A stretch of 64,000 bases of DNA. It comes from Candidatus Manganitrophus noduliformans. Its GTDB lineage: Bacteria; Nitrospirota; Nitrospiria; SBBL01; Manganitrophaceae. Location of the stretch: positions 282,504 through 346,503 of the forward strand of contig NZ_VTOW01000004.1 of assembly GCF_012184425.1 (NCBI RefSeq), in the 5' to 3' direction. Of the stretch, positions 19,141 to 61,395 are shown in pieces (position 1 is the first letter of the stretch; every line of letters begins with the position of its first letter). The notes beneath the pieces were generated by a model. It was given only the letters and a program-made list of their open reading frames with translations. It ran no database searches and was not told the DNA's origin. The translations under genes and the position numbers were made by a program.

Positions 19141-20192
19141 ATGCTCTCGAAGGTCTTCAGCGCCGTCCTGTATGGAATCGAGGCCCAGCCGATCGACGTG
19201 GAGGTCGATCTCTCCCAGGGCCTCCCTCTGCTGAATATTGTCGGCCTTCCCGACCTCGCGGTTAAAGAGAGCAAAGACCGCGTCCGTTCCGCCGTCAAGA
19301 ACACCGGTTTCCACTTTCCCATCAAGAAAATCACAATCAACTTGGCCCCGGCCGATCTTAAGAAAGAAGGCGCCGCCTTCGATCTGCCGATGGCGCTCGG
19401 CATTCTCGCCGCCGACGGGGTGCTGAAAGAAGACCGACTCGGCGATTACCTGATCGTCGGAGAGTTGTCGCTCGACGGGCGGGTCAAGGAGATCAAGGGG
19501 GCATTGGCGATGGCGATTTTGGCGAAGCGGGCCGGAAAGCGCGGCCTGCTCGTGCCCGCGAAGAACGGCGCCGAAGCGGCGGTCGTCTCAGGAATTGAAG
19601 TCCTAGGGGTCGAGACGCTTCCGCAGGTGGTCGAATTCCTCAACGGCCAGCTTGCCTTCTCGCCGGTCGAAACCCCGCTTTCCCCCCTTTTTGCCGAGCA
19701 GGCGATCTATGCCGAGGATTTCTCCGAGGTCCGGGGACAGACGCACGCAAAGCGGGCGCTGGAGATCGCGGCGGCGGGCGGGCACAACATTTTGATGGTC
19801 GGCCCCCCCGGCTCCGGAAAAACGATGCTCGCGAAGCGGTTCCCGACGATCCTTCCGAACATGAGCTTCGAGGAGTCGCTTGAAACCACGCTGGTTCACA
19901 GCATCTTCGGTCTTCTTACCGAGAAGCCGTTGATCGTCGCCCGCCCCTTCCGCTCTCCGCACCATACCGTTTCCGACGCCGGCCTGATCGGCGGCGGGCA
20001 ACTCCCGCGGCCCGGCGAAGTGAGCCTGGCCCACAACGGGGTTCTTTTTTTGGATGAGCTGCCGGAGTTTAAGCGCAACGTCTTGGAGGTATTACGGCAG
20101 CCCTTGGAGGAAGGAAGGGTCACGATCGCGCGCGCGAGCGCATCGTTGACTTACCCTTCGCAATTCATGTTGGTTGCTGCCATGAATCCTTG
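19141..20192 (+). pseudogene. comM: comM (yifB), 5' part, split by the integrative element
   Basis: The first 350 codons and two bases of an AAA+ Mg-chelatase-like helicase that promotes branch migration during natural transformation. The N-terminal lon-like fold (VEVDLSQGLPLLNIVGLPDLAVKES) is present. The ATPase domain shows Walker A GPPGSGKT, Walker B GVLFLDELPEF and the sensor segment AAMNPC, where the frame leaves host DNA. The frame then runs seven codons into the element and stops at 20217. The 3' part is at 61404-61886. As integrated, the protein lacks its C-terminal lid and should be non-functional. Confidence 0.93.
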
Positions 20193-21730
20193 TGATTGCG
20201 TTGCCTTGGTGCCATGATTTCAGAAGAGGAAGGGAGGTAGCAGAGGTTGATGGTTACGTCCTCTTTTCCGATGATGATCTTTTCGGTAATGTTTTCTACG
20301 ATTTTTCGCTTCTCTTCCTGAACTAACTCAGGCCAGCGGGTATAGAGGTCTTTAGCTTCATTGAGGATTTGGTCGCTTGAGAGGCATTGGATCTTCAAGA
20401 AATCGATTTCTCCCTGAAGGGTAGGAATCTGATCGTCGAGTTGCTTGAGCCGTTCTTCCAGGGGCCTATATTTATTCCCAAAGCCTTCGGTGGGGATCTC
20501 TCCCTTAAAGCGGAGTTCGAACAGGGTATCAATGTCCCGTTTGATTTTCCGGTGTTCTTCTTCGAGAACCCGCATTAACTCTTCTTTTCCTTTAATCGTC
20601 TTATCCGCCGTATCAAGGTAACCGGTAATCTCCTGGGGAGAGAAAAAGAAGGTTTTTAGTTGTTCTTGAAACACTCCTTCCATGTCTACGATGCTGATCT
20701 TGTTGCGGCACTTGGGACAAACGTATTTGGGGGTGTTCGAGGGAACGCGCAGCTTCGCGCCGCAGTCACAGAAGGCAATCCCGGAGAACAGATGAATCGC
20801 AGGACGAGAGGGAGGCTTCCGCGAACTTCTTTGATCTTTGAGGATGCCATTGCACTGGTTCCAGATTTCTTCTGAAACGATCGGCTCCACTTGGGTATAA
20901 ATCCAATGCTCTTTGGGTTTTAAGACCCAATGCTTCTTCTGACCGAGACTCTTGGTATAGTTCGAGCGCCGAAGACCTTTTGCGGTCGGGTCTTCAAGGA
21001 GGCGCGTCACGGTAGTGTCGGAAAACTTGGAGCCGTTCCGCGTCCGGTGTCCGGCTTCATTGAGGAGCCTGGCCACGACTTTTTTCCGCCGATGTTCCAG
21101 GAAAAGCTCGTACATCAGTTTCAAGACCGGCGCTTCCTTGGGATTGGGCACAAGCTGCCGGTCCTTCCAGTGATAGCCAAAGGGTGCCGCTCCACCGATA
21201 GATTTCCCCAGTTTTGCTCTGATGGGAACGGATGCCGCAACCCGGTCTGCAATTTCTTCACGCTCCCATTGGGCCATTGCGGCGATGATCGTATAAAAGA
21301 GCCGTCCGACAGGGGTGGTGGTATCGACTGATTCTTGGAGGGAGATCAGGTCCGCGCCATACTCCCGGAAAATATCCGAGAGCTCTAGAAGCTCACGGGT
21401 ATTGCGTGCGAGACGAGCAATTTTAGAAAAGATGACGCCTGTGACGTGACCCATTTTTATATCATTGAGCATCCGCTGAGCTTCGGGGTGGGAGATCACC
21501 GATTTCCCGCTTACGGCCTCAAGGTGGTAGACTTCTTTAATTTCCCATCCTTTGGCTTCGGCATAGAAGCGTGCCCGCTTCTCGTGATGTTCCGGACTTT
21601 CACCTTTTGCTTGGTCTTCAGTCGAAACACGGATCCATATGCCGACGCACTTCCCTTTTGAAGAGTCTTCATCGGTTTTCTTCGGACCGGCATTCTTCGG
21701 AGCCGGACTGACTGGATGTTTGCGTTCCAT
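20165..21730 (-). CDS. Large serine recombinase, the element's integrase (A)
   Basis: 521 residues from an ATG with AAGGAGG. The catalytic serine is in WIRVSTEDQ. The resolvase domain (about 28-175) is followed by the recombinase domain (about 190-320), a zinc ribbon (FCDCGAKL...VCPKCRN) and a long coiled coil, the layout of large serine integrases. It should catalyse attP x attB integration at comM. The last eight codons (KDSWQQPT) are read from host comM DNA past attL. In a circular element the frame would instead continue through attP into the double-HTH ORF at the right end (see findings). A terminator for it is not evident. Confidence 0.93.
   Translation of the reverse strand: MERKHPVSPAPKNAGPKKTDEDSSKGKCVGIWIRVSTEDQAKGESPEHHEKRARFYAEAKGWEIKEVYHLEAVSGKSVISHPEAQRMLNDIKMGHVTGVIFSKIARLARNTRELLELSDIFREYGADLISLQESVDTTTPVGRLFYTIIAAMAQWEREEIADRVAASVPIRAKLGKSIGGAAPFGYHWKDRQLVPNPKEAPVLKLMYELFLEHRRKKVVARLLNEAGHRTRNGSKFSDTTVTRLLEDPTAKGLRRSNYTKSLGQKKHWVLKPKEHWIYTQVEPIVSEEIWNQCNGILKDQRSSRKPPSRPAIHLFSGIAFCDCGAKLRVPSNTPKYVCPKCRNKISIVDMEGVFQEQLKTFFFSPQEITGYLDTADKTIKGKEELMRVLEEEHRKIKRDIDTLFELRFKGEIPTEGFGNKYRPLEERLKQLDDQIPTLQGEIDFLKIQCLSSDQILNEAKDLYTRWPELVQEEKRKIVENITEKIIIGKEDVTINLCYLPSSSEIMAPRQRNHKDSWQQPT
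20185..20207. other. attL
   Basis: Host AATCCT, shared core TG (20191-20192), then the element arm TGA plus TTGCGTTGCCTT (20196-20207). The arm is the exact inverse of AAGGCAACGCAA at the right end. TG is the only identity between the two junctions that is compatible with restoring comM, which fits a serine recombinase crossover dinucleotide. Confidence 0.88.
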
Positions 21731-21943
21731 CGCGGTGCCTCCTTTTCTTCATCATCAGCTTTTCCATACTCCTTTCTTTTATCCGGGTCAAGAATTTTCT
21801 GAGGTGTGTTGCCTAAGTACCATAAACCTGAAGGGAGGAGGTATAAATGGATTGGTTAAGTGTAGTAAAAGCTACTGAACGTAGATAGCAGAAATATACA
21901 GAAAATAATTGGTTGCTCTCATGCCCCTTCATCAAAAGGAAAG

Positions 21944-60722: not shown

Positions 60723-60936
60723 GAAAGACATTCAGAGTCTATGCGATATCATGGTGCTCAAAAAGAGGGACGCGGTAAATCTACCGACTCTTAGTTTGAG
60801 CGGTATACTCTTTTTTCCATTTGGCAATTTCGAATTCTCTGGTGACTGATTTTTGAACATTGGTGTTATCATCGATCAGTGTTGAGTGGTTCGATGCCCG
60901 ATATGTTTATACCTCTGATGTTATTATCCTCTCAAC

Positions 60937-61395
60937 TCACCCAGCCCTATTCAATATCTTATTCTCCGGACAAAAAGACCCGAAAAAGGTCTCAATCAAC
61001 TTCAGTGTTTTTTCAGTCGGTTGGCTCTTTCTTGCCTCACATCTTGCCAGTGTGGTTTTGTCAATTCCAATCATTTCAGCCATTTTCTCCTGGGTCACAC
61101 CTAAAACTCTCCGGCAGTTTTTAATCTTTTCGGGCAGTGAACTGGCAGGTGGAAACGGTATATAGGCGAGGAATGCAATAATCTTTGGGATATATGGCAG
61201 TTTGGGAACCGTGCGTTGCTTTTCCCAATTATAGAGGGTAACCTCATCGACTCCGATTTGCTCAGCGACCTGTTTTTGCCACAATCCTAAATCGAGGCGC
61301 TTTTTTTTGATGTGATCTCCTAAAGTAATCAACGACTTCGGATATGAAGAAGGCAACGGTTTTTGGGTTTTTAGAGTTACTTTGCAAAAAGGCAA
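60937..61395 (-). CDS. Double HTH domain ORF at the right end, likely the recombinase tail in the circular form
   Basis: The frame is open from a TAA at 61420-61422 through attR with no ATG; TTG 61395 is the first usable start. It encodes 152 residues with two XRE-like helix-turn-helix units: LGDHIKKKRLDLGLWQKQVAEQIGVDEVTLYNWE, then KIKNCRRVLGVTQEKMAEMIGIDKTTLARCE. Codon-by-codon joining of 20193 to 61405 puts it in frame behind recombinase A (…RNH-RVALPFCKV…). As integrated, it lacks a convincing start or ribosome site. Whether it is also made alone is unknown. Confidence 0.75.
   Translation of the reverse strand: MPFCKVTLKTQKPLPSSYPKSLITLGDHIKKKRLDLGLWQKQVAEQIGVDEVTLYNWEKQRTVPKLPYIPKIIAFLAYIPFPPASSLPEKIKNCRRVLGVTQEKMAEMIGIDKTTLARCEARKSQPTEKTLKLIETFFGSFCPENKILNRAG

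Follow-up and report, generated by a model that had tools for sequence, protein, structure and literature searches.

In the archaeal SSV-type suicidal tyrosine integrases (SSV1, pTN3 and pT26-2), attP lies inside the integrase gene, which is intact when the element is free and partitioned on integration; the excerpt of the 2021 review drawn on here calls self-disrupting recombinases exclusively archaeal (PMC8371274). In mycobacteriophage BPs and its relatives, attP lies in the coding sequence of the repressor, and integration leads to a C-terminally shorter product (PMC4557955). Fusion of a recombination directionality factor (RDF) to a serine integrase favours recombination of attL with attR (PMC5737554), and islands of other kinds, Tn7-like elements among them, are known to insert in comM (AbaR and others in Acinetobacter; PMC11472951). 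The subject of the present analysis is a stretch of 64,000 nt from Candidatus Manganitrophus noduliformans (contig NZ_VTOW01000004.1; the whole stretch is called the window), in which a 41-kb element interrupts comM. The serine recombinase gene at one end of this element and an open reading frame (ORF) with two helix-turn-helix (HTH) domains at the other are probably halves of a single gene that is split at attP, and the split is likely to work as a latch.

The likeness to the SSV-type systems lies in an attP within the recombinase's own gene, split on integration. In the excerpted source the archaeal enzymes are tyrosine recombinases, the catalytic part is separated and the products are described as inactive, whereas here the enzyme is a bacterial serine recombinase with a whole catalytic region and it is an HTH tail that is lost. 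The self-splitting logic is now seen in bacterial serine recombinases, with the twist that a DNA-binding tail goes and the catalytic part stays uncut. BPs and its relatives likewise have attP in a coding sequence and a shorter product on integration; the phages lose 33 repressor residues carrying an ssrA-like degradation tag, whereas here a recombinase loses a folded double-HTH tail (its end, NKILNRAG, is not ssrA-like by eye). An earlier note on this DNA had drawn the analogy with integration-dependent repressors of mycobacteriophages: the comparison is fair but inexact, attP lying there in a repressor gene (PMC4557955), and the archaeal integrases are nearer (PMC8371274). Engineered integrase-RDF fusions likewise add a module to the C-terminus of a large serine integrase, whereas the module here is natural, of XRE type and present or absent according to the state of attP. 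AbaR-type islands interrupt comM as well; here a serine recombinase is involved, and the TG core falls in the NPCxCGY codons of the gene.

The nearest named recombinase models are those of Ccr and XisF, but the recombinase is not a member of either: its NCBIfam scores, 137 or less, lie below curated cut-offs of 375 to 900 (137.3 against 900 for CcrB, 99.4 against 375 for XisF). To our knowledge, no attP-spanning tail is known in Ccr or XisF. Among the titles and abstract openings listed by a literature search, with subscription journals and preprints outside its reach, there was neither a serine recombinase split by its own attP nor a serine recombinase in comM.

The comM insertion and its predicted attP

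The coordinates and frames of the earlier note were correct on re-reading of the window (Table 1). Joined at the TG dinucleotide common to both junctions, the flanks of the element give an uninterrupted comM frame. Recombinase A matches PF00239 (Resolvase) and then PF07508 (Recombinase) above cut-off; as to a zinc ribbon after these domains, cysteine pairs are present, and PF13408, which some relatives match, is unmatched at 1e-3. As described earlier, the frame of recombinase A crosses attL and stops eight codons into antisense comM (K-D-S-W-Q-Q-P-T-stop). The double-HTH ORF itself occupies 60937-61395 on the minus strand, at the right junction. Once the ends of the element are joined (61405 to 20193), the recombinase frame runs through H-RVALPFCKV into this ORF as a single open frame of 668 codons, again as the note had it. 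The predicted attP is thereby placed inside a recombinase-HTH gene: the free circle would make a recombinase of ~668 aa with a DNA-binding tail, and the inserted element would make the 521-aa form that is without it.

The same join yields the putative attP, GGCAACGCAACTC-TG-TGATTGCGTTGCC, which is 28 bp long and near-palindromic. Each of its arms has 13 nt, 10 of which, the outer 10, pair with the other arm, and equal arm complementarity was reached by 2 of 20,000 random 13-mer pairs drawn from the element. A 2-nt core between inverted-repeat arms is what is predicted for the attP of a large serine recombinase, and a motif resembling the window arm, GCGTTGCC, is present at attR in many relatives. 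Copies of the arm motif, TGCGTTGCTTTT and AAGAAGGCAACG, also occur inside the coding sequence of the HTH tail (window 61212-61223 and 61347-61358); these may be accessory recombinase sites, or they may be due to chance.

Reading frames across attP and natural fusions

For the window alone, the chance of a frame match is about one in three, and the weight of the argument rests on relatives. A scan of genome contigs was used, from which the best 80 of 339 relatives were kept. In 52 of these loci the recombinase ends at the comM 5' part, in nine it runs directly into an HTH tail, two (L041 and L073) join the comM 3' part in sense, and 17 are without a resolved end, several of them at contig ends. 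The tail was sought at 1e-6 in the 78 genomes behind the 80 loci, with matches in 34 of 39 and 32 of 39, some of which are ordinary XRE proteins. Forty-four recombinase/tail pairs were tried, the window included, and 40 could be scored, four not. Twelve elements with a comM 5' junction stayed unpaired: for eleven no tail was found beside a comM 3' part, and the genome of L085 holds two elements. A pair counted as matched if its two sides agreed in frame with respect to antisense comM, as an open frame in the circle requires.

Both sides share a frame in 39 of the 40 scored elements, and in 14 of 15 pairs that lie on a single contig. By frame class, 23 pairs are 1/1, 16 are 2/2 and one is 1/2; none of 100,000 shuffled pairings matched 39 of 40. 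The earlier note had named a frameshift at attP in relatives as one of the observations that would speak against it, and the scored elements point the other way. The exception, L022/L093, has one base missing at the attR core (by eye) and for that reason was rejected as counter-evidence. In class 1, attP is read as ..AGG CAA CGC AAC.. / ..GCG TTG CCT TTT TGC.. (RQRN / ALPFC); in class 2 the reading of this motif moves on by one base at either side, giving ..G GCA ACG.. / ..C GTT GCC TTT TTG.. (AT / VAFL). A joint shift of this kind is what one continuous protein would predict, and conserved DNA alone would not.

Recombinase and tail are also joined in natural proteins. A first protein search, in which the joined protein was scored over residues 470-668, gave 93 proteins, 10 of which hold recombinase and HTH with an alignment continuous over the attP codons (QRNF-IPALPFC; P0001 is a fragment); the other 83 are tail-less. 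A second search, with an unsplit Yonathbacteria gene of the other frame class as query, gave 52 proteins: 15 with HTH domains, mostly of the ATKPH-RRVAFLP type (among them P0122, a fragment without listed recombinase domains), and 37 without. The two sets do not overlap, and together they hold 25 natural recombinase-HTH fusions and 120 tail-less proteins. Under a strict pattern, the end matches a comM-antisense peptide (RDSW-like or GFIAATS-like) in 68 of the 83 tail-less proteins from the first search and in 31 of the 37 from the second, 99 of 120 in all; in the other 21 it does not. Chance as the source of the frame match was dismissed on the strength of the in-frame relatives together with these fusions. 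Three related recombinases (L045, L084 and L092) have C-termini of the form ..DSNPR..; these presumably resemble antisense tRNA, which would suggest tRNA-integrating cousins.

Frames and fusions also bear on another explanation, in which the HTH ORF is an independent regulator that abuts attP, its translation in the inserted element beginning at a TTG or at an ATG within antisense comM, and frame continuity is a by-product of a conserved attP. HTH-only predicted proteins are indeed known (18 matches, some from short contigs), and most of the severed HTH ORFs listed are open. The earlier note had held that the ORF lacks a start when integrated. This stands for the window, where ATG is absent and the three in-frame TTG codons are without a Shine-Dalgarno-like sequence by a simple test, but it is not universal: the attR ORF of the relative L007 starts at an ATG within antisense comM, and P0094 (131 aa), the predicted protein for the window's own HTH, starts at a codon for which the window reads TTG. 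Against such a regulator, the linker has an ATG in only four of the 36 attR sites scored (41 listed), with no conserved start codon, and linker residues upstream of the HTH are conserved. Together with the natural fusions and the joint shift of frame class on both sides, this makes an independent regulator quite improbable.

Split and unsplit genes in lineages and arrays

In a tree of 47 recombinases, seven unsplit genes are scattered among the split ones, with seven changes of state, six of them forced by starred branches; the split rows carry 14 different phylum labels (taken from record titles). Split L059 (titled Desulforudis) and unsplit L056 (Moraniibacteriota) are identical at 424 of 475 recombinase residues, and split L067 and unsplit L032 have 413 of 477 residues in common. 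The possibility that fused and short recombinases belong to separate evolutionary families, instead of being one gene in two states, gains from the fact that Patescibacteria account for five of the nine loci at which the genome scan showed an unsplit junction. It was dismissed on the interleaving of split and unsplit genes on the tree, and close pairs that differ in state, the comM sequence in which most short forms end and the tail that many split genomes have beside the other comM half make it exceedingly improbable. Whole comM genes are present in all five Patescibacteria genomes whose recombinase gene is unsplit (L013, L014, L032, L056 and L063), and each has one such recombinase at 1e-40. 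That the element encodes two recombinase forms according to the state of attP, as proposed in the earlier note, is upheld by the natural fusions, by the 39 of 40 elements in frame and by unsplit genes at intact comM or at the inner junction of an array.

Such an inner junction is found in Mucilaginibacter (G112:C24). The order there is comM 5' part, truncated recombinase, ~38 kb, an unsplit recombinase-HTH gene of 645 codons, ~13 kb, a lone HTH tail and comM 3' part, an order that would follow if, where two tandem elements meet, the fusion is restored with the tail of the neighbour. In this and other arrays, second insertions at an occupied comM do occur. Insertions in reverse orientation are present as well (L200 and L201 on G106:C80, L198 and L199 on G111:C11, and L041). 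In G106 and in one G111 element the attP core on the recombinase strand is TG instead of CA; in both of these reversed elements the HTH adjoins the 5' part of comM, and the frame still passes from recombinase to HTH across attP (by eye). The G106 recombinase passes in frame into the comM 3' part (a 665-codon open frame), and the comM 5' part passes into the HTH tail (519 codons). Tandem and reverse-orientation insertions suggest an exchange of tails between elements.

Some further arrangements were seen beside these. One protein, P0163, unites recombinase and Mg-chelatase (comM) Pfam domains and may be compared with the reverse-orientation insertions. At L193 (G112:C24:37000-53500), an insert of ~12 kb breaks the comM 5' part close to residue 279 and marks a second site of insertion in the gene. 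HTH tails stand in rows at L166 (G083:C1), L167 (G090:C76) and L168 (G067:C53), the first two no more than 8 kb from a comM 3' part, the third in a stretch without comM; the rows look as if they were remnants of earlier insertions.

Several observations weigh against a single gene that alternates between a free and an inserted state. Five of the 25 natural fusions have a tail of 78-93 residues, about one HTH rather than two. At the nine loci with an unsplit junction, the first HTH of L024 contains a stop codon, L049 carries a frameshift, and only one HTH precedes the end in L032 and L063. An extra attR copy outside the scored set, L172, is out of frame, with an apparent one-base loss in the linker relative to its sister copy L135 (by eye). 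In 25 of the 40 pairs the halves lie on different contigs of one assembly. The frame classes cluster on the tree, with five changes of which only one is forced by well-supported branches, which makes the number of independent events smaller than the 39 pairs. One of six tail pairs (L015/L113) has a ratio of nonsynonymous to synonymous divergence (dN/dS) of 0.61. The L013 and L014 contigs carry a second recombinase beside or near a tRNA gene, so that the unsplit gene may belong to an element integrated otherwise and not to a free circle; these elements may have integrated through the second enzyme, with the comM-type attP left unused. Overlapping ends were sought in eight contigs with an unsplit junction (six by their ends, two short ones whole), without a find, and no circle was seen. 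Close relatives are also absent from the plasmid, phage and viral collections searched: a viral contig scan with the fused-protein alignment returned 56 stretches that matched a pattern and zero relatives, and plasmid and phage records all fall below 60% identity, those listed at about 21-33% (three Paenibacillus phage records cover 92% of the query at 23% identity).

The tail, its possible roles and the rest of the element

Modelled alone, the tail forms two four-helix HTH units with a predicted local distance difference test (pLDDT) value of 88.7. The full-length model has a mean pLDDT of 65.4 and a predicted template modelling score (pTM) of 0.28, and only its HTH part was used; as to a coiled coil after the recombinase domain, long helices are predicted at 343-442 of P0004 by a low-confidence model. 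In sequence profile and in fold, the tail matches DNA-binding domains of the phage-repressor type, namely P22 C2, 434, DdrO and C-proteins (Foldseek E-values 0.003 or worse). The five tail pairs other than L015/L113 have dN/dS values of 0.13-0.31. In two split/unsplit pairs with close recombinases, tail dN is 0.29 and 0.32, at a tail dS of 1.6-1.8 that is near saturation, and recombinase dN is 0.06 and 0.09. These figures indicate that the tail is maintained as a protein, yet diverges at some four to five times the rate of the enzyme, a pace that fits what would be expected for recognition of element-specific DNA.

The resemblance of the two XRE/Cro-type domains to the P22 C2 and 434 repressors, and a tail divergence that would fit operator specificity, raise the possibility that the tail acts in cis as a directionality factor, or else as an autorepressor: with the tail attached, the protein would control the recombinase promoter or favour excision, and integration would lift this control. 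Integrase-RDF fusions do alter direction, but in the excerpted source a fused RDF favours attL x attR and lowers attP x attB (PMC5737554), yet the full-length gene here is found only where attP is unsplit. Upstream of the recombinase, operator-like repeats were sought and none stood out convincingly. A role of this kind is possible, although doubtful.

The short form covers the NCBIfam XisF model from position 47 to 464 of 465 and keeps the catalytic and recombinase domains; for these reasons it is expected to remain an enzyme. The point matters for a partition of the suicidal type, in which loss of the tail would inactivate the recombinase and the element would be trapped until another full-length enzyme acts. 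An attP within the gene's own coding sequence has its archaeal precedent (PMC8371274), and the arrays suggest later arrivals at occupied sites, as this explanation would have it. The archaeal catalytic part is separated, whereas the catalytic part here is retained in the short form, and a suicidal partition is accordingly rated as unlikely.

The favoured reading of these sequences is a one-way integration latch in which the tail would promote or license integration of the free form, with autorepression or a directionality role as live alternatives; a targeting domain is a further candidate role. The full-length enzyme would perform attP x attB recombination in comM, and integration would carry the gene's 3' portion to the opposite end of the element, cut off from its start and promoter. 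The short form that is left would probably still be an enzyme, unlike the split archaeal integrases, under altered control. The tail is proposed to bind element-specific DNA and to favour or control integration of the free form, and its loss would make integration self-terminating; this is the weakest step of the explanation and is put forward tentatively. It is conceivable, at slightly less than an even prospect, that these elements form a widespread bacterial class with self-editing integration enzymes, in which one crossover in comM would strip the recombinase of an element-specific DNA-binding tail and so set a heritable latch between the chemistry of the free and of the inserted form, without a separate repressor or directionality factor, tails being reshuffled between elements as arrays form at comM. 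Direction control of large serine integrases is a practical question, and the family supplies natural tailed and tail-less pairs that allow a direct measurement of what a C-terminal module does.

Table 1. Features of the comM-inserted element and its junctions (window positions).
Feature	Position	Strand	Remarks
comM 5' part, through TG core (about 350 codons)	19141..20192	+	one open comM frame when joined to 61406-61886
attL crossover dinucleotide TG, comM 5' junction	20191..20192		common to both junctions and the joined comM site
attP half-site adjoining recombinase, TGATTGCGTTGCC	20193..20205		encodes recombinase C-terminus; 10/13 positions complementary to other arm
Recombinase A, integrated tail-less form, 521 aa	20165..21730	-	Pfam Resolvase and Recombinase; AGGAGG ahead of ATG
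Severed C-terminal tail: short linker and two XRE/Cro-type HTH domains	60937..61403	-	HTH_3 in two stretches; in frame with recombinase once ends are joined
attP half-site adjoining HTH ORF, GGCAACGCAACTC	61391..61403		encodes first tail residues
attR crossover dinucleotide TG, comM 3' junction	61404..61405		same core as 20191-20192
comM 3' part	61406..61886	+	comM frame resumes when joined to 20192
Predicted joining peptide of fused form, ...QRNHRVALPFCK...			integrated-form counterpart ...QRNHKDSWQQPT
Recombinase C, second large serine recombinase of element, 570 aa	40508..42220	+	Pfam
Backbone module	52217..57548	+	Pfam: VirD4/HerA-like ATPase (52217-53398), 173-aa ORF (53738-54259), 1086-aa TrwB/TraD-like ATPase (54288-57548)

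Recombinase C shares 43% identity with a second recombinase from the Paceibacterota contig L014, on which the comM-type recombinase gene is unsplit. A further serine recombinase of only 250 aa is identified by Pfam at window 34580-35332. At 1e-8, tblastn with the backbone module gave matches to the VirD4/HerA-like ATPase in 37 of 86 loci, to the 173-aa ORF in 13 and to the TrwB/TraD-like ATPase in 39, a few of the 86 loci overlapping one another; from the two ATPase counts, many comM elements have a common backbone besides the recombinase.

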